In this document: positions 1-20,899 of the stretch, piece after piece
Numbering within the stretch: the first letter of the stretch is position 1
Layout: the number at the start of each line of letters is the position of its first letter
IMG/VR virus record: IMGVR_UViG_3300017763_000263
Coordinates: 1 to 20,899 of that record
Direction: 5' to 3' (one strand)
DNA: 20,899 bases
Origin: a virus
Program-made: the position numbers and the translations under genes
Notes under the pieces: model-generated
Seen by the model: only the letters and a program-made list of their open reading frames with translations
Told to the model about the DNA's origin: nothing
Database searches by the model: none

Positions 1-3000
1 GATCCAATTCTAACTTTGCCGCCATTAGGTTGTAATAATAAATTATAATAAGTTGCAGTATTTGTTCTTTGTTGCTGTATATAACCATTACCATTAGTAA
101 TTGACCCAACAAACATTCCATAACTATTAAGGTCAGCACTAAATATTGCTGCTCCACCTGCTCCTGACCCTGCTGCGGGTACTGATGCAGATGCAGGACC
201 TATAACTTGAAAATCAGCTAATGGAGTACTTGTAGAACCTACCATAACATTTCCATTATTATTAGGAAATACAATAGATGTTCCATCTGGACTTGCTAAT
301 GCATTGACACTTGCATAGCCTGAAGCAGCAACATTTCCTGAATGGTCTATAGAAAATCTATCTCCAATCGCGTTCCAGTGCAATATTAATTTATTGGATT
401 CATGTACAAGCCAAGGATAATTAGTAGAACCATTTGTAGCACCTGTATTTCTAAAACCAATACAATATCTCTGGCCTGTGGAAATAGCTACAGGGTAACT
501 AGAACCGAAGTCTGCGCCAACACAAATTCTTGGAGTAGTCGTTTTACCTGTAACTGTTAAATTAGCATTTCCGCCATCAAGTTGCATAACACTTACTGTA
601 TCTGCAGCTGTTGCTCTAATACCTGAAGCAGTGCCATAAGAGGAGCCGGAAGAGCCAAAGAATCCATTAGAACTTTCATATGAAATATAAGCACCATCAA
701 TAAGTACTGAACCTTGACCATTTTTTGATAAAATAACAAATTCTGCACCACCAGTCATGGTTAGTCCATTTTGACGAGTATATCCGTTATTTGCTAAATC
801 ACCTAACCACGAACCACTTTGAATAAAGAATCCAGTAGAATTTATATTATCAAGTGTTTGAGCATTACCGCCATCTGCTGAAGTAATATAATTCGGATTG
901 CTTGAAGGAACCCATGAAGGTGTTACATCAGCATTTGTTGCACCAGTATAACCTAGATTTGCAAGAGTTAGTGTTCTTGTGCTATGTGATTGAATCACAC
1001 CATCAGTCATATTTAATTGGTCAATAACTGTTGCGCCTGATGTGTTAATATCTGAGTCTGTACCTATAATCGTATTACCAGAAGATGTTACATAACCTTG
1101 TCCAGTAACAAAAGTATGAATTTGATCAGCAGTAGCAAGAGCTGTTCCGCTATTAGCAATAGCTGCTGTTTTTGCTCGTACAACGCCTGACCCACTTGTA
1201 GATGATAATTCAATAGTAGTATTATCAACAGAGACTTCAATTTCATTTGCACCTGCAGTGATACCATCACCTCCAATTACATTCAAAGTTGCAGAACCCG
1301 AACTTGCTCCTCCAGTCATACCACTTCCGGCTACAACTGCAGTAATATCTCCTCCACTCGCTTCTGAGGCGTCTCCGCTTTCATCTACATAAAAACTTTC
1401 TCCTGTTGCTGCAGTTACTGATATAGTTCTTGAAGCTGCCGTATTACTTACACTGTTTATTCCTGAATTTTGTGTTCCTGCTGTACCTCCTATTTCTGCA
1501 AAGAAATAATAAGTATCAGCAGTATATGAGTCTGTATCTGATATTACAAAATTTCCTCCACTAAGTAGGTTTGTATTGTTTGCTTGAAATACATGGGCTT
1601 CATGAAATCTAAATCCTGGTTCAGCTTCAAAAGAAGTATCAACATTATACTGAGTACCACTTCCACTACCTGTTGTTCTTGTTACACCATTTGTAAAAGA
1701 AGTACCTAGATTGGCTATTTCGGTTGGGCTACTTAAGTCTGAATTAGTAGATACCATAAGCCTCATCTGAACTTTTGCAGGTATTTTATTAACTGCCTGT
1801 GATTCTGTTGCATTTGTTCCATAAGAATAACCTGACATTGTTGCAGGTTTTGACACACTAATTGTTAATGTTTGAGTAGCGTCTAAAGTTACTGTTTGAG
1901 CGTCTGTGGTTGCAGAAGAATTAGTTACAGTTTTTGAAATAGTTGATACTGCAGTACCTGTTGTTTGTGCTATTCCTGAGAAGAATTCATCGGAGAAACC
2001 GTCTTCAGATGAAAACACTTTAGAACCACTTGCATTATATATTTCTACGTTATTTAATTTAACTACTGAATCTGTTCCTGTTTTTACGACTTCTATAGGT
2101 GCATCTGCATCTGCTCCAGCTTTGAATATTGTACTACCTTGTGATATCTGAACCAAACTTGTTCCTGTTCCTGAAGATAATCCTCCCGACACAGAACCTG
2201 TTAATGTTAAATCTTTAGCAGTTACTGCTCCTGTTCCAGCTGCAACAAAGTTACCGCTACCTAAATTAATACTTGAACCTGTTCCTGATATAGCTAGTCC
2301 TGTAGAACTAAGCGTTGCGTCTCCAAAGGTTCCTGTTGAGCCTGTAAGACTTCCCTTTACTGTTAAATTACTGCCGTCCCATCTTAAATGTTTAGCAGAG
2401 GTTCCAATATCAAACTTGTATGCTCCTGAACTATAGCCTAAAAAGAATCCTGCATCCGCATCGGCATAATCTGTTTTACCTGTAGAATAAATTTTTCCTG
2501 ATGTATTTACTTCTAATATACTTCCTACATATAATCTATTTGTTAAAGTTGTGTTTGCACTAAGTACACTTGCATTTACAGTACCTGTTGTTATTTTTGC
2601 ACCATTTATAGTAGTAGTATTATTATTTACAGCTGCTGCTACACCGCTTGGAACAACAAAACCTGAATCATTTGTAAAGTCACTTACATTAACTGGTTTA
2701 TTAGCAAGACTATCGAAATCTCCATCGAAAATATCAACAGGAGTTCCTCCATCTGTTAACTGAGTATTTGAGTTAGTAAAAGTAACTACTCCGTTAAAGT
2801 TTATATGTTCAGTAACAGTGGCATATGCAACAGATATAGTTGAAGAGTTTGCACTCGTTTCTGTACCATAATATCTTACAGTATAAAAAGTATTAGAAGA
2901 TGTAGCATCCTGTGTATTTGGTGAATTTAACCAAACATTATTAGGTTGGTTAGTCGCAGTACTAATACCTGTGCCTGTTACGGCGCCACTAGAAAAAGTA

Positions 3001-6000
3001 TAAGTGTTTCCAGAAGGGGCAGAAGGTGCACCTGATGTTGTTTTTTCTTGATATAAATAACCTTGTATAGTTCTAAGTCCTGGGTCCCCAATGAATTTAA
3101 CATAAGTTAGTCCACTAGGAACACTCGTAGGCTCTGAGCCTGTCCATTCATAGAAGTTTACAAATGTTCTACTTCCTTGAGTAAAGCTTGCCCCACTTCC
3201 TGATGCATTGTTTGCATATATAGGTACTACTCCTTCTGAAGTACCTACAAACTTAACATATCCAGAATTGAATACACTTGCTGATATACCTGGAGCTGAG
3301 CCTGTGTACTCTACATACTTAACAAAGGTTAAACTACCTTGAGTAAAACTTTTATTAGTACCGTTAGCATCAGAAGCATAAGCTACTTTGACACCTTGTG
3401 TTTGCCCGTCAGTACCTTTAGCTATTGTAAGTGTTGTAGTTCCATCCCCATCTGTAATTGGTATAGTAGTATTTCCTGAACCATCAGTACTTGGAGTACC
3501 TACAGAAACTGAAGTTCCTGCCTTTGACTTTGAAAGAGTATATTTTCGAGTTAATGTTTTTGTTCCTGTACCGCCATGTACACTTGCTGGTATCAATGCT
3601 CTTACTGTGAATGTTTCTATATCACTAGACCAACTAGACCCTGTTAGGGCATAAGCTCCAGTAGATTGAGTAAGTGTAAAGGTTAATCCATTTTGAGTAA
3701 CACTAGTATTTGTGCCACTTGTTCCTATATAGAATAGCACACTTGAGTTTGTACTTACAGAAGTAGCACCTACAAAAGTTTCAAAAGCTCCACCTGCATC
3801 ATCATAAAATCCACTAGCATTTGTAGCACCACTTGAATTTGTAGCTACAGTATGTGTAGAATTTGTTAAATTACCTGTAACGCCTCCAATACCTCCAGCA
3901 CCGTCTTGTACTGAGAATAATGTAATAACATCTGTTGCTTTTAAGCTTCCACCTTCAAACATTCTGCATCTTATTTGTGTTTCTGAATCTAGCGCTGGCT
4001 CATCCCCATCTGCTAATGTGAAGGTAGTAGCTGTAGAAGCTATTGTGTTATTAGAAGCGTCTGTTGTTATCTGAGACCAGTTTTGTCCTTGGTCTGTGCT
4101 TTTATAGTAATCGAATGTAGGTGTTACAGCGTGTCCTTGAGGAGTTGCTGAAATATCGATAGTTGTAGAATCATCTGGAGGGCTTCCATTGTCATATCTA
4201 ATTACAAAGTTACTCGCCGCAAGTTTAACTGTTCTTGCATCTAGTCCACCACCTGCAGCACCGTCTAGTCCTGCTGTAACTGCATACGTCTCACTAATAC
4301 TATAATTTGTAGAAGCATCTGTAATAATTTTTGCAAGTATAACATCGTTAGAAGGTATAAAACTTTGCTTTTTAATAGCTACTCCACTATACGCTCTAGT
4401 GGTAGTATTATTAACTCTCAGAGAAGTATTGCTGGTTATAGCATTAATTGTTCCCATAAATAAAGAAGTTCCGCTACTTACAAATACTTTATCTCCTACT
4501 TCAAATTCTGTAGTAAAAGATGTTCCAGACCCTGTAATTAAATTAGTATTAACCCCCATAGAGGCAGTACCAGAAATTGCTGTTAGTCCTTCGTTAGAAG
4601 CACCTACTTCCTTCCAGTATTTTATAGCTAATTTATCACCATTTGCAGAAACTGCAGTGCTGTTTTCTACAAATTGAACTGCTTTAAATTTATCTGTAGA
4701 TTCACTAGCATCGAACAATAAATAAGCAAGAGAATTAGCTCCCATATTATTAAAATTTTGTTGATAACAGCTAGAAGTATTAGTACTATTTAAATAAGTT
4801 ATTCCATCAGGTGCATCGAATTGATATCCATAGTTGCCTACAGATACTGTAGAAGCGCTAATTGTTAAGGCTTGATTTAACACTCCGCCTTTCATAATCT
4901 GTTCTATCTTAGGTCCTGGATATAAAGAAAGTTTAGATGCTACTACTTCAATTTCATTTTTAATATATTTTGAGTAAAAACCGTTTGTTGTTAGAACTCT
5001 TAGAAATACAGTATATAATACACCTGGAGTTACATCTTTAATTCTGTGACCTGTAGAATCTGGTCCAATACTTATTGTTTTCTTAAATCCTTTCCCTTCA
5101 GCATCTTCTAGCCCAACTATCAGTATCTCGTACCCTGCAATAAATTCGTATTTTTTATTTGAATTTGCTTCTGTACTTAGAGGGGGTGTCCATCCTACTA
5201 GTAAATCAACTCCTGTGCTATTTATATCGATAGATTCTGCCGCACTTTCATGCCCTGCAGGTATAGCACTTAGTCCCATACTTGTAGGTGCAGGAATTAT
5301 TCCCTCCCTTGTAGGTGGTTTTCTTATTTCAGGAGTTTCTTCTATTATATAACCTCTTTCTACTAAGTCATATAAATCTTCTGAATGTCCCACGGCACTA
5401 ATATTGTAGGTTTTTTCATTTGAGTCCTCTGATATAGATGTAATTAAAAAAGGTTTAGGTGCAGAAGCTACTAAGTCACCAGTAGCTTGAGTTGTTGCTG
5501 TTATGCTCCACATAACTTCACTGTTTGGGGTTGAAGAAAATGCTGAAGATACTGTTACAATATTATTATTATAAGAACTTACAGGTTTACTTTCAATTCT
5601 AGAATATTGAGACCAGAGTATTTGAACATTGTCTCCGCTGTCATCTTCGGTGTTTATTGCTGCAGTTTCTGATGTTATTGAAGTTAGTAAATCTCCACGT
5701 TTATATTCTGTTGAGCTTATAGTTGCTGTATCTTGATTAAGGTATGCGCCTCCTGTAGGATAAATTAAATTTAAATCAAAATTAGTACCCGAAGCACTTA
5801 GGTCTACTGCTCTATCTAGTCTAACTACAGTAGAGGAGCTAGAAGAAGAAGAGTCTACTCTTCCTGAAGATTGAGTAGTATATATGTCAGAATCTTGTAC
5901 TTCTATCAGGTCTCCAGGTTTTAAATGCGCTGCATTAAGTCCTGTTCCAAAAGTTACAACTTCTTCTGAAAATCGCTCTGTAAGTAGCATCCATTTTCCG

Positions 6001-8186
6001 TGACGAATTGCTTGTCCTTGTGAGGTACATCCAAGAGCTACTACTTCGGTAGGATTAATTCTATTAGTTTCTAATATGTTTTCGGTGTCTTCTATGACTT
6101 CTACTTCTTGCCTGTAAAAAGCATCTGGGTTATTATAAGTTACTCTGACTTGATTTGAACGAAATCTAGTAGGAGTTGATTGGTACGTAAAAGAGCCGCC
6201 TATAACATTACCTTTGGAAAATGTATATATCGGAGATTTTTTAGAGTTTAACTGAGGAGACACTTTACCGTTGAAATAAACAAGCATACCTCTAAAGATA
6301 GATATAATATCTGATAAGTATCTTTGGGCTTCTGCAAGTTCAGTAATATACATATTACAAGTAAATCTAGGTTCGAACCCTCCTTTACCGTCAGGTACTA
6401 ATTCATCACAATATTTTGCTATTTGGTACAGTTGGAATTTATCTATTTGTGCAAAGTCATCATTAGAATCTATGTATTTTCCTAAACCATAACGGTCATT
6501 TGTCATTATATCTAATAATATCCATGCAGGATTATCAGTCCATACTAACTCGGTATTAACTCCTGAAGTAAAAGTATTTAAGTCACCTCTAAAATTTCCA
6601 TCCCAATCTTGGTCGGTGCTTTCGGTAGCTCCAGTAGTAACATTTCTATTATATGTTGCGGGGGAGTCAGAATATAATTCATTTCTAGGTTTATAATTTG
6701 TAGGTACTTTTATTTTTAAACCTCTAAGATCGTATCCTCTATTTGGTATACTACTAAAGTTTTGTGCATCTAATATTACTGCTCCATAAGCTGTATAAGG
6801 GTAACTTAATTTATCCTCTATAATATTTTGTATAGCTTGTAGTTGACTTGGGGCAGTATGGATAAAATCTCCATGTTCTGCCTGTGTAGGAGTCACTTTT
6901 TGTATATTTACTCTATAATCAGTAAAAGGTTGAAATTTTTCTATGTCAAAAGAAAAACTATAATTAAATGGGGTTCTTGTTAGTCTTCTCACAGTACCTG
7001 TTCCATTGTTATTAGTATTTGGCTTATTTAGTTGACTTCTGGCTTGTAGAGAAGAATCTGATACTCCGAATATTCTTTCCGAAGTATAGTTTGTGCCATC
7101 AGTTGTATATTCAAAATCTATTAAAAATTCTGCATTAGCTGCAGCTTCTTTCCCGCTTCTAGGTTTATGAGCAAATATTCCGGAAGGAAAGTTTATGGTA
7201 ATACTTATTTGATCTACTTCACCTGGATTAGTAACCCCCATTGTTGTAGCAGTTACTCTATTAGCGTCTCTTGCTGCTGTAGGTTCTGGAGTATCACTCC
7301 AACCTGACTGAGAATTTGGAGTACTACCTATACCGCTTAAAGACGATAAATCAGTTTGAGCTATTTCAGTAGAAGCATTATAAACTATAGAAGAACTTCC
7401 TAAACCTACAGGAGGTTTCAAGTAACTTTGGTCTCTAGTACCCGGTCTAAAAGCTATAGCTGTATTTTCAAAATTATACTTTGGAGTACTTGCAACAGTT
7501 TGTGAAGGAGTTGTAACAAAAGCAGAAACATTAGAAGCATTAATACCTTGTGCAGACGCTAAAGTTGCTTGGGAGGCACTTTGTATTGAACCTATTAGGG
7601 CTATTAAATCTACATGAGTAGTAACATTAGATACAGTTGTTCTTGCGGGGGACATAAGGTATACTCTTTTTTGATCAATGTATGTACCTATGGAAGCTAC
7701 TAAATCACTTCCTCCAACCCCTGCTCCTGGTATATGTACTGAGGTTCTTCCTGCCTTGTTGAAAGCATCTAGTGTAGTAAATATATTTGTTGTACAAGTT
7801 AATAAAGTTGTACCTGCAACAATGCTCATAGTACCAGATTTTCCTGCTTTATGTATTCGTATGTATTGAGAACCTTCAGATGTATCTTTGCCTGAGAACA
7901 AAGACCCATTATTATCAGTTATAACTCCTGAAGATGCTGTATAAGTTACATCTGTTGAATTTGTAGGCCCAAAACTTTTATTATTAGAGCCTTCCATAAC
8001 AGGAGTACTATCTAAATATACTGAAGCTGCTCCATCTACTAAGCCTTCGATCGGGCCTTCTGAAAGCATATCATATATTAATGCTGTTTGTTTTTCAGTC
8101 GAAGTTTTTTTATTTGAAGTAACATTTGAAGTAGACCCTGCCCCTGCTCCTTTTCCTTCTTTCATTGTTAATTTTATGTCTGACAT
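1..8186 (-). CDS. J: Giant gpJ-like tail tip protein / central tail fibre (3' end outside window)
   Basis: The frame starts at ATG 8186 and stays open to the window edge, giving at least 2728 residues with the C-terminus missing; lambda gpJ has 1132. The first ~950 residues look like a gpJ tip hub: DMLSEGPIEGLVDG near 39-52, NPAWILLDIMTNDRYGLGKY near 547-570, and GDLIEVQDSD near 760. Known role of the family: the hub closes the tail tube and contacts the receptor. A fibronectin type III-like domain follows (~965-1080), then beta-rich modules, a tandem repeat (~1599-1703), and a segment resembling the J C-terminal (DUF1983-type) region (INGAKITTGTVNASVL). Further on are Ser/Thr/Gly-rich fibre sequence, a GDITAVVAGSGMTGG motif (~2270) and GNVMVGSTSTPLADFQV (~2640), reminiscent of fibre ends that precede a self-cleaving chaperone domain. 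A seven-serine run lies near residue 779. The start overlaps the gpI stop by one base (TAATG), with GGAG nine bases upstream. Hub identity is firm; receptor binding by the distal part is inferred. Confidence 0.92.
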   Translation of the reverse strand, partial: MSDIKLTMKEGKGAGAGSTSNVTSNKKTSTEKQTALIYDMLSEGPIEGLVDGAASVYLDSTPVMEGSNNKSFGPTNSTDVTYTASSGVITDNNGSLFSGKDTSEGSQYIRIHKAGKSGTMSIVAGTTLLTCTTNIFTTLDAFNKAGRTSVHIPGAGVGGSDLVASIGTYIDQKRVYLMSPARTTVSNVTTHVDLIALIGSIQSASQATLASAQGINASNVSAFVTTPSQTVASTPKYNFENTAIAFRPGTRDQSYLKPPVGLGSSSIVYNASTEIAQTDLSSLSGIGSTPNSQSGWSDTPEPTAARDANRVTATTMGVTNPGEVDQISITINFPSGIFAHKPRSGKEAAANAEFLIDFEYTTDGTNYTSERIFGVSDSSLQARSQLNKPNTNNNGTGTVRRLTRTPFNYSFSFDIEKFQPFTDYRVNIQKVTPTQAEHGDFIHTAPSQLQAIQNIIEDKLSYPYTAYGAVILDAQNFSSIPNRGYDLRGLKIKVPTNYKPRNELYSDSPATYNRNVTTGATESTDQDWDGNFRGDLNTFTSGVNTELVWTDNPAWILLDIMTNDRYGLGKYIDSNDDFAQIDKFQLYQIAKYCDELVPDGKGGFEPRFTCNMYITELAEAQRYLSDIISIFRGMLVYFNGKVSPQLNSKKSPIYTFSKGNVIGGSFTYQSTPTRFRSNQVRVTYNNPDAFYRQEVEVIEDTENILETNRINPTEVVALGCTSQGQAIRHGKWMLLTERFSEEVVTFGTGLNAAHLKPGDLIEVQDSDIYTTQSSGRVDSSSSSSSTVVRLDRAVDLSASGTNFDLNLIYPTGGAYLNQDTATISSTEYKRGDLLTSITSETAAINTEDDSGDNVQILWSQYSRIESKPVSSYNNNIVTVSSAFSSTPNSEVMWSITATTQATGDLVASAPKPFLITSISEDSNEKTYNISAVGHSEDLYDLVERGYIIEETPEIRKPPTREGIIPAPTSMGLSAIPAGHESAAESIDINSTGVDLLVGWTPPLSTEANSNKKYEFIAGYEILIVGLEDAEGKGFKKTISIGPDSTGHRIKDVTPGVLYTVFLRVLTTNGFYSKYIKNEIEVVASKLSLYPGPKIEQIMKGGVLNQALTISASTVSVGNYGYQFDAPDGITYLNSTNTSSCYQQNFNNMGANSLAYLLFDASESTDKFKAVQFVENSTAVSANGDKLAIKYWKEVGASNEGLTAISGTASMGVNTNLITGSGTSFTTEFEVGDKVFVSSGTSLFMGTINAITSNTSLRVNNTTTRAYSGVAIKKQSFIPSNDVILAKIITDASTNYSISETYAVTAGLDGAAGGGLDARTVKLAASNFVIRYDNGSPPDDSTTIDISATPQGHAVTPTFDYYKSTDQGQNWSQITTDASNNTIASTATTFTLADGDEPALDSETQIRCRMFEGGSLKATDVITLFSVQDGAGGIGGVTGNLTNSTHTVATNSSGATNASGFYDDAGGAFETFVGATSVSTNSSVLFYIGTSGTNTSVTQNGLTFTLTQSTGAYALTGSSWSSDIETFTVRALIPASVHGGTGTKTLTRKYTLSKSKAGTSVSVGTPSTDGSGNTTIPITDGDGTTTLTIAKGTDGQTQGVKVAYASDANGTNKSFTQGSLTFVKYVEYTGSAPGISASVFNSGYVKFVGTSEGVVPIYANNASGSGASFTQGSRTFVNFYEWTGSEPTSVPSGLTYVKFIGDPGLRTIQGYLYQEKTTSGAPSAPSGNTYTFSSGAVTGTGISTATNQPNNVWLNSPNTQDATSSNTFYTVRYYGTETSANSSTISVAYATVTEHINFNGVVTFTNSNTQLTDGGTPVDIFDGDFDSLANKPVNVSDFTNDSGFVVPSGVAAAVNNNTTTINGAKITTGTVNASVLSANTTLTNRLYVGSILEVNTSGKIYSTGKTDYADADAGFFLGYSSGAYKFDIGTSAKHLRWDGSNLTVKGSLTGSTGTFGDATLSSTGLAISGTGSSINLGSGNFVAAGTGAVTAKDLTLTGSVSGGLSSGTGTSLVQISQGSTIFKAGADADAPIEVVKTGTDSVVKLNNVEIYNASGSKVFSSEDGFSDEFFSGIAQTTGTAVSTISKTVTNSSATTDAQTVTLDATQTLTISVSKPATMSGYSYGTNATESQAVNKIPAKVQMRLMVSTNSDLSSPTEIANLGTSFTNGVTRTTGSGSGTQYNVDTSFEAEPGFRFHEAHVFQANNTNLLSGGNFVISDTDSYTADTYYFFAEIGGTAGTQNSGINSVSNTAASRTISVTAATGESFYVDESGDASEASGGDITAVVAGSGMTGGASSGSATLNVIGGDGITAGANEIEVSVDNTTIELSSTSGSGVVRAKTAAIANSGTALATADQIHTFVTGQGYVTSSGNTIIGTDSDINTSGATVIDQLNMTDGVIQSHSTRTLTLANLGYTGATNADVTPSWVPSSNPNYITSADGGNAQTLDNINSTGFFIQSGSWLGDLANNGYTRQNGLTMTGGAEFVILSKNGQGSVLIDGAYISYESSNGFFGSSGSSYGTASGIRATAADTVSVMQLDGGNANLTVTGKTTTPRICVGADFGSSYPVAISTGQRYCIGFRNTGATNGSTNYPWLVHESNKLILHWNAIGDRFSIDHSGNVAASGYASVNALASPDGTSIVFPNNNGNVMVGSTSTPLADFQVIGPASASVPAAGSGAGGAAIFSADLNSYGMFVGSITNGNGYIQQQRTNTATYYNLLLQPNGGKVRIG

Positions 8187-8878
8187 TAGAATATACTCCA
8201 AGTAATTGCATCGGCGTTTTCGCCTATAGTTGTTGAATTTGCGGCACTGGTGCCTTCGCTAGAGGATGTAATAAGATATTGTGTATTTGAACCTATTGAC
8301 ATATCTCCTTCTAAAAAGGCAAAATTCATTGGAGACCCTCCAACTATTAATCTGCCATACAGTAAAGGTACCGGTACTCCTTGTTTTACGTTATTTACAG
8401 GGCCGTCAAAATAATAAGAATCCCCTGCTTCTGAAGGTTTTTTAGGTGTCATTAATCCCATTATACCTCGCATAGCTAAAGTACTCCCTACAAACAACAT
8501 AGCAGCTACAGTTTGGCCGGCTGTCAGACCAAGTACCCCTGCCGTGGGAGGGAAAAAGAGTGCTGCAACTATAAGAGCTACTCCTATAATAACTTTTAAT
8601 CTATCTTTAAAGCCTCCTGCACCTGCAGGTATAGGAGTAATTATTAAGTCTTCTTCTCCCAGCTCGGTACTTAAGTTAGTGTAATCTAATAATTCTTTCC
8701 CTTTTTGCACATGGAACATAATTCCTTTTTCTGTACAATCTACTAAGTATTTGGTTAACTTATTATTTCTTTGAACATCTATACCGTGCATAGCTTCCTG
8801 TACAGTGGCTGCATTTAATTTCCAATGTTCTCCAAAGAGTTTTCCCATTTTTCCTTTTAAGTAAATATTTCTTGTCAT
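8186..8878 (-). CDS. I: Tail tip assembly protein, lambda gpI-like
   Basis: This 230-residue protein sits between gpK and gpJ homologues; lambda gpI has 223 residues. The N-terminal ~80 residues form a soluble domain (VYLKGKMGKLFG-like start, read here as IYLKGKMGKLFG at 5-16). A Gly/Ala-rich hydrophobic stretch spans ~93-142, and a conserved tail follows with PVNNVKQGVPVPLLYGRLIVGG at 160-181 (key residues GVPVPLLYG). In lambda, gpI is needed to assemble the tail tip initiator with gpJ and gpL and is not clearly retained in the virion. The ATG overlaps the gpK stop as ATGA, and GGAG lies six bases before it, so translation is probably coupled. The product ends in TAA, sharing its last base with the J start. 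Family assignment is confident; the exact assembly step is inferred from lambda. Confidence 0.88.
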   Translation of the reverse strand: MTRNIYLKGKMGKLFGEHWKLNAATVQEAMHGIDVQRNNKLTKYLVDCTEKGIMFHVQKGKELLDYTNLSTELGEEDLIITPIPAGAGGFKDRLKVIIGVALIVAALFFPPTAGVLGLTAGQTVAAMLFVGSTLAMRGIMGLMTPKKPSEAGDSYYFDGPVNNVKQGVPVPLLYGRLIVGGSPMNFAFLEGDMSIGSNTQYLITSSSEGTSAANSTTIGENADAITWSIF

Positions 8879-14461: not shown

Positions 14462-14881
14462 TTACCCGGCCTTTGCTTTTGATTTACTCTTAGCATTTAA
14501 ATCTTTATTTATCTTGTTAGAGTGTCTCGCTTGTATTTGCCGTAAAAAGAAAACAACAGTTTTTTTATGTGTTATTTTGTATAAATCTAATAATGTTCCT
14601 AAAGGGCTCCAGTCTTTGCCTAAATGATAACCCATATTGGTGTCCCAAATACATGGTAGAGCATCATGTAGTATAAAAGCTTCTTGAACTTCCCAAGGAT
14701 AGTCATTAAGGCTGGGAGGTAGTACACTTAAGTCTAACTCCCTTCCTGTTTGTTCCGCTATTTTATAGTGTAGTTCTAAGTCTACTTGTCCATCTTTATA
14801 CTGAGTGTCTAGTAAACCAAGTATCTCTGTTACTTGGTCTTGGTAAAATTTTCTAAATCTCCTACCGTTTCTGTTATCCAA
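14462..14881 (-). CDS. GT: Tail assembly chaperone, T-frame extension made by -1 frameshift (GT product)
   Basis: This open frame overlaps the G gene in the -1 frame. Its only upstream start is a TTG at 14881 with an AGGAG ten bases away, so it is better read as the second half of a G-T fusion. Slippage at A AAT TTT (14845-14851) gives ...GDLENF joined to YQDQVTEILGLL... The predicted fusion is 138 + 127 = 265 residues, close to lambda gpGT (279). The T part is mainly helical, with PPSLNDYPWEVQEAF near ORF residues 55-69 and a Lys/Ala-rich basic tail (KSKSKAKAG). In lambda the G part coats the tape measure protein while T recruits tail tube subunits, and neither stays in the virion. It ends 17 bases before the tape measure start, as expected. 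Confidence 0.85.
   Translation of the reverse strand: MDNRNGRRFRKFYQDQVTEILGLLDTQYKDGQVDLELHYKIAEQTGRELDLSVLPPSLNDYPWEVQEAFILHDALPCIWDTNMGYHLGKDWSPLGTLLDLYKITHKKTVVFFLRQIQARHSNKINKDLNAKSKSKAKAG
14816..14851 (-). promoter_or_regulatory. Programmed -1 ribosomal frameshift element
   Basis: Reading the minus strand in the G frame, the codons GAA AAT TTT supply the heptamer A AAT TTT (14845-14851), which fits X XXY YYZ. After a 6-base spacer (ACCAAG, 14839-14844) comes a perfect 8-bp stem, ACCAAGTA (14831-14838) with TACTTGGT (14816-14823), closing a 7-base loop. Slippage by -1 enters the T frame exactly; the G stop codon lies just inside the hairpin. Position, direction and spacing all match the G/GT frameshift of lambda-like phages. 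Confidence 0.88.
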
Positions 14882-15258
14882 GTATCGAAGTCTCCTGCAT
14901 TTTTCATAAGAATCTCTGCATCTTCTTGAGTATATACTAGTTCATCTTCTGGGTCTACTCCATCTAGATTTACTAGAAGCATTTTTTCTAGATACTTGTA
15001 CTTTAGGCCACTCCAGCCTTTAATAACTGATTTGCAGTACTCAATTAAAAATTTATCATCATCTAACTCTTCCTCGAATCCTCGAGTTTTTCTATTAAAC
15101 TTCTGTGATAGACATCTTGCTCTTAATTTTATTAACTCTTCTCGAGCTAAAAAACATAGGTCAATTGTCATTCCTGAAAATTCAGGATAATCTATTGTTA
15201 CTGTCTTGCTAGGTGTCATAAGACTAGCTAGCGATACGTTTTTCTTCTGTTCTGTCAT
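14830..15258 (-). CDS. G: Tail assembly chaperone G
   Basis: A 142-residue protein between the tail tube and tape measure genes; lambda gpG has 140 residues. It starts MTEQKKNVSLASLM and contains an N-terminal domain with VTIDYPEFSGMTIDLCFLAR (~20-39), then a helical, acidic region (FEEELDDDKFLIEYCKSV, ~61-78). It resembles tail assembly chaperones that hold the tape measure protein soluble and guide tube assembly. An AAGGA lies about ten bases before the ATG, after a hairpin/T-tract that may lower its expression relative to the tube protein. Most ribosomes should stop at TAA 14830-14832, and a fraction shift to make GT. Primary sequence similarity to lambda G is weak, so the call rests on size, position and the frameshift. 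Confidence 0.83.
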   Translation of the reverse strand: MTEQKKNVSLASLMTPSKTVTIDYPEFSGMTIDLCFLAREELIKLRARCLSQKFNRKTRGFEEELDDDKFLIEYCKSVIKGWSGLKYKYLEKMLLVNLDGVDPEDELVYTQEDAEILMKNAGDFDTWITETVGDLENFTKTK

Positions 15259-19255: not shown

Positions 19256-20899
19256 TTAACTAGCTGGTTTATACGTGAAGCCCCATGCAGAAGGAGTGCC
19301 ACTGATTAATTCAGAGAACCCGATTCTTTGAGAAGCAACAAGTACTCTTCTTTGGTTAGCTACTTCGTAGTCAGACTCAATGGTTACACCTCTAAGTCTT
19401 GGCATTACGTAGTTTCTAGTGTAAACAGCGACCGCGCCATATTTACTAGCAGCTTTAGTTGCGAACTCATCACATAGTATTACTCTTGATCCGAATACTT
19501 GTCCGATTTCACCACTTAGCTTAGTAGCCATATCACCAACTAATTGAACATCTTGGAACTCAACATCTTCTAGTAGATTGAAGTAAACATCCTGTGATAC
19601 GATATATACTACATCGTTAGGATTAACTCCATATTTACCCATATTTTTTCTCATTCCTAATAGATCAGCTGCAGTTACTTTGTCAGTCGCTGCGAAAGGT
19701 GCTGCTCCATCTGAAGTTGCGTGAGAATTGTCTGTTATCTTATGTAATAGACCATCAAATGTACCTGAAGTATAAACACCATCAGCGTGATTACCTGCTA
19801 AGATAGCATTCTCAATTCCTCTTGCATGTGATCTAACCATAGATTCTCTAATTAAAGGAAGAATCGGTAAGATTGCATCTTCTTCAGTTTCATTACCTAA
19901 GTAAGACTGAGAAACTAGTTTTTGAGTTGATAATGTTATCTGCTGTAAGTCTACTCCATTATAAGGAGCGCCTAAAGCGTCGCTTCTAGCATCTAAGTTA
20001 CCTTTTGGTGAAGAACCTGAAGCTGCTTGAGATGCTGTAAATTCAGCATATCCAGCATCTGGTAAGATTGGGATAAGCATGTTAGCAGAAGTCATAGCGA
20101 TTTCTCTAAATAGAGGTGCTAATACTAGCTCGTTTTGAATATCTCTTTCGATGTTAGTTGAAACGACTTGTTCAAAGTCTGCTGTTGATACTTCAACACC
20201 TGACATTGAATTAACTTTTTCCATTAATGATTTTGAAATATCATTGTTCCATCCTTTACCAGTCGCTAGACCAGCAAATTTTGCATCAAGAACATCTGCT
20301 TCAAATTCTTTTTTCCAATCGCCAGAGTTACTTCTATCAGAGAAATGTCTTTTAGACTCTCTAATATTCATAATCTCTTCTGATTTTTCAGCTAGTTGTG
20401 ATTCTAAAGTTTTTACAACTGACTCTAAATTAGAGTAGTCATCTTTAATTCTAGATTCAACATCATTCATGAGCTTTTCGGCTCCTGTTAATCCAGCTTC
20501 AACTATAGTTTTAGTTTTTTCCTGATCCGCTACTTCGTTAGCTTTTAGAACTTTAGCTTCATCAGTTGCTTTTTGAGCAGCTTCTTCTGCAGCCTTCTGT
20601 TCAGCAGCTTTTGATTCAGCTTGCTTCATTGCGATTTCAGCAGCTGTATCAGCAGCTACTTTCTTTGCAAAAGCATCTAAATCGAAATTGCTTTCAGGAG
20701 ATTGTTTTTCGTTTGACATATTTGTCTCCATGTTATGGGATTCCTCCCGTCTTGGCTGCTCAACATTAACAGCGTCTGCTGATTCTGCTGGGTTAGCCTT
20801 GTAAAAAGTTTGCTTGTACTCATTGTACTGTTCCATACTATCAAATGACTTGCTTAAGCCAAAGGTTGCCCCTTGGTTGCAAGGAACTGATACTACAGA
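19256..20899 (-). CDS. HK97-fold major capsid protein, possibly fused in frame to a prohead protease (5' end outside window)
   Basis: The frame covers 547 residues in the window and is still open at the edge. From the first ATG at 20836 it gives 526 residues; numbering below uses that. After ~35 linker-like residues, a charged, Ala/Glu/Lys-rich coiled-coil region (~50-165) fits the scaffolding delta domain of HK97-type capsids, normally removed by the prohead protease. The capsid fold follows, with NIERDIQNELVLAPLFREIA (~228-247), LSTQKLVSQSYLGNETEEDA (~302-321), RSHARGIENAILAG (~335-348), GVNPNDVVYIVSQDVYFNLL and a C-terminal RRVLVASQRIGF. The 21 codons before the first ATG read SVVSVPCNQGATFGLSKSFDS, like the end of a prohead protease. 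Internal ATGs at 20731 and 20719, with GGAGG and GGAG upstream, could start the capsid separately. Capsid identity is firm; fusion is inferred. Confidence 0.9.
   Translation of the reverse strand, partial: SVVSVPCNQGATFGLSKSFDSMEQYNEYKQTFYKANPAESADAVNVEQPRREESHNMETNMSNEKQSPESNFDLDAFAKKVAADTAAEIAMKQAESKAAEQKAAEEAAQKATDEAKVLKANEVADQEKTKTIVEAGLTGAEKLMNDVESRIKDDYSNLESVVKTLESQLAEKSEEIMNIRESKRHFSDRSNSGDWKKEFEADVLDAKFAGLATGKGWNNDISKSLMEKVNSMSGVEVSTADFEQVVSTNIERDIQNELVLAPLFREIAMTSANMLIPILPDAGYAEFTASQAASGSSPKGNLDARSDALGAPYNGVDLQQITLSTQKLVSQSYLGNETEEDAILPILPLIRESMVRSHARGIENAILAGNHADGVYTSGTFDGLLHKITDNSHATSDGAAPFAATDKVTAADLLGMRKNMGKYGVNPNDVVYIVSQDVYFNLLEDVEFQDVQLVGDMATKLSGEIGQVFGSRVILCDEFATKAASKYGAVAVYTRNYVMPRLRGVTIESDYEVANQRRVLVASQRIGFSELISGTPSAWGFTYKPAS
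20719..20748 (-). promoter_or_regulatory. Candidate internal translation start region for the capsid protein
   Basis: GGAGG (20743-20747) lies 11 bases before ATG 20731, and GGAG lies six bases before ATG 20719 in the same frame. Either start would yield a capsid precursor of about 490 residues without the protease-like segment. Part of the GGAGG can fold into a short GGGA-GGAA-TCCC hairpin. Confidence 0.45.

Follow-up and report, generated by a model that had tools for sequence, protein, structure and literature searches.

The capsid gene at the edge of this viral contig has no visible beginning, which raises the question of whether it forms part of a continuous protease-delta-capsid polypeptide and, if it does, from which start codon the capsid protein itself is made. 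The window (the whole stretch of DNA analysed) is the entire virus record of 20,899 b, and the contig terminates within the gene in question; therefore, the edge at position 20899 is a contig end and not a gene boundary. The original prediction held that no stop codon separates the capsid start region from the window edge, that the sequence there resembles the end of a prohead protease domain, and that capsid might be produced from an internal ATG at 20731 or 20719.

A single reading frame encodes the protease, delta and capsid parts

The minus-strand capsid frame, closed by a stop codon at 19256-19258, is indeed free of stops up to the window edge (Table 1). Relatives were found at 80 viral loci, and added scans using divergent members gave 263 distinct fused ORFs, which serve here as the deeper set, while start-site counts refer to 192 distinct ORFs. 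In relatives with sufficient upstream DNA the frame continues for another ~140-160 aa without a stop, so that the complete protein has a length of ~680 aa. A stop or a separate start shortly beyond 20899 was looked for and is absent in every relative, in line with the continuous frame foreseen from the window alone, and no stop codon lies between the protease and capsid parts in any relative of the group, at 42-99% identity. Of the 34 loci that were not caught by text patterns, some are truncated at a contig end and the others again consist of one long ORF, in nearly every case of 670-712 aa, and MAG contigs at 42-66% identity are fused as well. The arrangement is thus not that of a T5-like two-gene head module, which has separate protease and capsid genes, since all relatives carry one ORF. 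Because a stop between the two parts is missing from relatives at every depth, the fusion cannot be attributed to chance, and the protease-delta-capsid fusion is confirmed.

Table 1. Coordinates of the fusion gene and of the elements within it (positions in the window)
Feature	Position	Strand	Basis
Fusion ORF within the contig, 547 aa, N-terminal letters SVVSVPCNQGATFGLSKSF (~670-700 aa when complete in relatives)	19256..20899	-	Open frame, relatives
C-terminal end of predicted S78-type prohead protease domain (SVVSVPCNQGATFGLSKSF), remainder off contig	20843..20899	-	Alignment with T5 and HK022 proteases
RNA hairpin H1: outer stem GGCU..AGCC; middle stem of CUCAAUC/GAUUGAG type (CCCAG/UUGAG in the window); inner CAGC-AGAC-GCUG at 20781-20770	20754..20798	-	
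RNA hairpin H2: GGGA-GGAA-UCCC, ends 7 nt 5' of the Shine-Dalgarno sequence	20737..20748	-	
Internal Shine-Dalgarno sequence GGAG, 6 nt 5' of the ATG	20726..20729	-	
Conserved internal ATG (192/192); predicted codon 1 of a 487-aa protease-free capsid precursor	20717..20719	-	
Other in-frame ATG named in the original prediction; Met not conserved, start role improbable	20729..20731	-	
Predicted delta (scaffolding) domain, ~168 aa, predicted coiled coil	20216..20719	-	T5 capsid precursor alignment; long helices in low-confidence model
Predicted mature HK97-fold capsid protein, ~319 aa, N-terminus at or within ~2 residues of VNSMSGVEVS	19259..20215	-	Alignment with T5 mature capsid 5tjt; Pfam Phage_capsid

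The window itself contains only the final residues of the protease domain, and the profile scores come from relatives. The upstream extension matches the Pfam S78 profile (PF04586) with 57-60 bits in five relatives (cut-off 21) and TIGR01543 with 60-86 bits in ten (cut-off 59). The catalytic His (FNH, H64) and Ser (FSVGF, S109) are invariant in alignments of 24 and 49 sequences, and align with those of HK022 gp4 (FNH, MSVGF) and of the T5 protease. The suggested protease end therefore withstood the profile check and, judged by these matches, what lies upstream is a complete protease domain of the S78 type, although its proteolysis of the delta domain is inferred only. Modelled on its own (pLDDT 68), the protease part has T4 gp21 as its best PDB match (E 5e-3), and in a viral structure library it matches many prohead proteases with E-values down to 4e-12; the AlphaFold model of the whole fusion was poor (pLDDT 46) and unusable. 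The top match in the viral library, BFVD A0A6J7WTK4, is a 656-aa 'Prohead protease [uncultured Caudovirales phage]' with 46% identity, and is probably an unrecognised protease-capsid fusion annotated from its N-terminus alone.

The window protein matches PF05065 with 32.5 bits (cut-off 24.2), while the capsid part of one relative (L007) matches the T5-type precursor 8ho3 with an E-value of 6e-58 (phmmer) and 5tjt with 7e-51. The N-terminus of the mature T5 chain 5tjt aligns to VNSMSGVEVS at window position 20215, give or take one or two residues. On these alignments the capsid part is an HK97-fold major capsid protein of the T5 type.

The minus strand of the window represents a head-to-tail module comprising a connector, a major tail protein, two overlapping tail chaperones, a 1215-aa tape measure protein, lambda-like tail tip proteins and a large J-like protein. 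The ORF of the latter (3-8201, minus strand; at least 2733 aa) is cut short by the opposite end of the contig. The two chaperone ORFs for tail assembly (14462-15258, minus strand; phrog_3914 and phrog_313) overlap in the lambda G/GT layout, so that a programmed frameshift is likely there. The module is a mosaic, combining a lambda-like tail tip (I, K, L, M) with a T5-like capsid.

The predicted internal start and its counterparts in other fusion families

Both ATGs named in the original prediction are present, but only the second stood as a candidate start. The ATG at 20719 is found in all 192 distinct ORFs, each time with GGAG no more than 16 nt upstream, at a spacing of 6 nt in 186 ORFs and of 9 nt in the other 6. 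In the deeper set an internal Met preceded by a Shine-Dalgarno sequence occurs in all 263 ORFs (GGAG in 214, AGGA in 49). The start at 20731 was rejected: an ATG occupies this position in only 86 of the 192 ORFs, the remainder having ACG, AAG, CCG or a shifted sequence, and the GGGAGG upstream of it sits in the 5' arm and loop of hairpin H2. Position 20731 instead contributes the leading G of the GGAG belonging to the 20719 start.

The nucleotides of this site are conserved even where the encoded residue is not. The codon giving the first G is always of the form xxG (94 ACG, 86 ATG, 4 AAG and 2 CCG; n=186) and thus specifies Thr, Met, Lys or Pro, and the adjacent Glu codon is GAG in 186/186, although GAG accounts for 28% of Glu codons. 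ACG makes up 4.5% of Thr codons, and 100 of the 316 ACG codons of the ORF set fall at the GGAG site. GGAG located 5-9 nt 5' of an in-frame Met was counted 192 times at the 20719 column versus 6 times among 2,814 other Met codons. The internal start site is also easier to open, requiring 6.7 kcal/mol compared to 9.8 kcal/mol for other Met codons. Some amino-acid constraint close to the internal start, where MSxE is conserved, cannot be excluded. A conserved in-frame internal start, a Shine-Dalgarno sequence and a common stop, which together define a nested in-frame pair, are all present, and the production of two proteins is inferred from them. A comparable GGAG precedes the first (upstream) start in about three-quarters of relatives; therefore, which product is dominant is undecidable from sequence alone. 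In two relatives a small ORF of 88-91 aa (L007:4328-4603 and L003:4337-4603) sits between the portal gene and the fusion gene (4593-6647 in L007), with 11 nt shared at the fusion start; such a layout typically goes with translational coupling, here of the first start.

Protease-capsid fusions as such are already known (NF045541, NF045540, and thaumarchaeal proviruses, PMC6563490), while no description of the conserved internal start or of the RNA element was found in a partial, open-access-only literature search. The window's group scores 47-59 bits against NF045541, far under the cut-off of 525, and so is not a member of that family but a fusion lineage of its own among T5-type head proteins. 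The NF045541 fusions of proteobacterial genomes likewise combine protease, scaffold and capsid in one polypeptide; among their 24 ORFs a junction ATG is present in 22 and is preceded by a Shine-Dalgarno sequence in 20 of these, compared to 1 of 83 at five other conserved ATG columns (p 3e-18). The NF045540 fusions (15 ORFs) have a ClpP-like protease fold unrelated to S78, yet their aligned junction ATG carries a Shine-Dalgarno sequence in 8 of 8 cases versus 5 of 169 elsewhere (p 6e-11), and other members have a Shine-Dalgarno-preceded ATG nearby. Both p-values count related ORFs as independent. Unlike the window's group, these two families give no hairpin signal 5' of the junction starts (median p 0.77), indicating that hairpins are dispensable for internal starts in general. 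The NF045541 and NF045540 fusions with Shine-Dalgarno-preceded junction ATGs (L427-L450, L457-L486 and L424-L426) are annotated as single products, which deserves review.

RNA structure upstream of the internal start and alternative readings

The strongest synonymous constraint in the ORF, at window sizes of 8, 16 and 32, lies in alignment codon columns 174-206, covering ~100 nt 5' of the internal start. This stretch folds as two hairpins. H1 is formed by the pairing of GGCU with AGCC and of CUCAAUC with GAUUGAG, frequently capped by CAGC-AGAC-GCUG, while H2, which ends a few nucleotides 5' of the Shine-Dalgarno sequence, occurs in the variants GGGA/UCCC, GGGC/GCCC and GAGGA/UCCUC or longer, frequently with a GNRA loop. 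In 96 distinct sequences 88.3% of cells are paired, compared to 19.8-40.6% with slid partners and 81.2% in shuffles. Changes on both sides affect 139 cells as against 64 in shuffles; the number of pair types in these sequences is no higher than in shuffles. A tree from which the element was left out puts the independent double (compensatory) changes at about 20, several of which alter amino acids on both arms, e.g. Ala/Thr with Pro/Ser. Clades at 42-66% identity keep the Shine-Dalgarno sequence and ATG, have H1 lost or altered, and carry a hairpin of unrelated sequence at the place of H2. The 36 nt that end at the Shine-Dalgarno sequence are more stable than synonymous shuffles, with a median p of 0.06 in 25 representatives versus 0.41 in 500 same-gene control windows; the Mann-Whitney value of 1e-10 is optimistic because the representatives are partly related. 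A longest-ungapped-stem statistic did not separate the internal start site from controls and is uninformative. With the covariance model, records of up to 105 kb give a single strong hit per contig and far relatives give weak hits at the equivalent position, with no match in the T5, VPG01 or HK022 loci, and the element has no match in Rfam 15 at the gathering score.

Several other sources of the constraint were considered and rejected. A DNA-level site is unlikely, since the stems vary in sequence yet stay complementary, and G-U changes exceed C-A mismatches at well-paired positions. No conserved slippery heptamer for a programmed frameshift was seen at the hairpins on inspection by eye, and the zero frame is open anyway. 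The constrained stretch contains TTGAGC, but a conserved -10 promoter element was not seen. A second fold element 3' of the ATG (aligned nt 684-740) shows no covariation despite its good energy and probably derives from the alanine-rich coil.

The fusion gene is most readily understood as an in-frame nested gene with two products, a protease-delta-capsid protein and a protease-free delta-capsid protein, a reading to which we assign a probability of about 0.8. It is favoured over a plain fusion because of the conserved Shine-Dalgarno sequence and ATG, the constrained hairpins, their retention in far relatives and the junction starts in two other families. Initiation at the upstream ATG, located off the contig, would yield the full-length fusion, and initiation at the GGAG-N6-ATG would yield a delta-capsid protein without protease, presumably most of the capsid precursor. 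Both products would co-assemble via their delta and capsid parts, so that the protease, carried in by the fusion, would enter the prohead in a fixed proportion. Inside the prohead the protease would free itself and all delta domains, cutting at the T5-equivalent site near 20215. In the absence of protein or RNA data, initiation at the internal start, the ratio of the two products and self-release are all inferred, and so is the function of the hairpins, which most likely would keep the initiation region open and insulated from the upstream coding RNA and may also shield or set the 5' end of the capsid mRNA. Insulation of the initiation site is the preferred role, with mRNA processing or a protein operator remaining possible.

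Processing of the mRNA is the alternative that survives best, although we regard it as unlikely. A nuclease cut near H1 and H2 would leave a stable capsid mRNA with a 5' hairpin, and the ratio of products would then depend on RNA cleavage more than on initiation. RNase III sites precede T7 gene 10, such sites are common 5' of highly expressed phage genes, and two adjoining stable hairpins, often GNRA-looped, stand directly 5' of the capsid start here. However, a conserved cleavage motif is absent, the stems are short for RNase III, and the far clades lose or alter H1 but keep H2 and the Shine-Dalgarno sequence.

Production of a single polypeptide, each copy of which cleaves itself and in which the internal ATG and GGAG are incidental, appears distinctly improbable. 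In its favour are the mechanical simplicity of a 1:1 arrangement, the uninterrupted frame and the Shine-Dalgarno sequence belonging to the first start, but this reading leaves unexplained why the internal signal is retained in 192/192 ORFs despite the varying amino acid before GGAG, why base pairing survives amino-acid changes on both arms, and why a junction start recurs in two other fusion families, one with a different protease. It would also place one protease per capsid subunit inside the prohead.

Still less support exists for the element as a binding site at which a phage protein, for instance the capsid precursor or some late regulator, would repress or activate initiation at the internal start, so that the ratio tracks the capsid level. 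A small structured element beside a Shine-Dalgarno sequence is a usual form of translational operator, and there is a single strong copy per contig in records of up to 105 kb; but the loop and stem sequences of H2 vary freely among clades, unlike those of a sequence-specific operator, and no candidate binder was identified. Finally, an artefact, in which a missed stop or an assembly error joins two genes, could be entertained from the window alone, which shows just a contig edge, but is refuted by the relatives, where the fusion recurs in over 260 distinct ORFs whose sources are independent metagenomes as well as MAG contigs.

Relation to T5 and to nested protease genes

The closest characterised relatives of both the capsid and the protease are the head genes of T5 (protease T5.150, or pb11, and major head protein pb8; Demerecviridae). 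The protease of the group is ~45-52% identical to those of T5-like phages, the order protease, delta, capsid is shared, and the predicted cleavage region is equivalent. T5 has 775 copies of pb8, whose N-terminal scaffold is cut off by pb11 (PMC5292684). However, in T5 and Vibrio phage VPG01 the two genes are separated by a stop plus 17 or 7 nt, whereas the window's group lacks the stop and has the capsid start inside the ORF. Since T5 and its relatives possess adjacent separate genes, the parsimonious history, itself an inference, is that the protease stop was lost and the capsid start kept. A published precedent is provided by the thaumarchaeal proviruses NCAV2-Pro1 and NitIsl-Pro1, in which an S78 protease domain is fused to the MCP; these differ in being archaeal, and the accessible part of that publication makes no mention of an internal start (PMC6563490). 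Two candidates for fused relatives were discarded, namely the 'coat protein' of Moraxella phage Mcat1, which is actually two overlapping genes, and the distant loci L308 and L309, where protease and capsid are separate.

The proposed mechanism is analogous to that of lambda C and Nu3, nested in-frame genes with a long protease-bearing product and a short, protease-free co-terminal one. In herpesviruses, UL26/UL26.5 similarly give a long protease-bearing product and a shorter in-frame co-terminal one without the protease, but the short products, to judge by the title of a cited reference on cytomegalovirus, come from nested transcripts and not from an internal Shine-Dalgarno sequence (PMC4498786). 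In both systems the nested product is scaffold only, whereas that of the fusion gene would be scaffold plus capsid protein.

We lean towards the view that phage protease-capsid 'fusions' are generally dual-product genes, as three families with two unrelated protease folds have a junction start that would set the protease dose, to which the marine T5-like group adds a conserved, coding-embedded and perhaps regulatory RNA element. If this is true, it suggests how the maturation protease of a phage can be joined to a capsid protein needed in hundreds of copies without each subunit having to carry a protease. Genes annotated as 'protease/MCP fusion' are then predicted to yield two proteins; therefore, database records of capsid starts are probably incomplete for fusion families. 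The group would also represent a clean example of an RNA structure conserved within a coding region beside an internal start.
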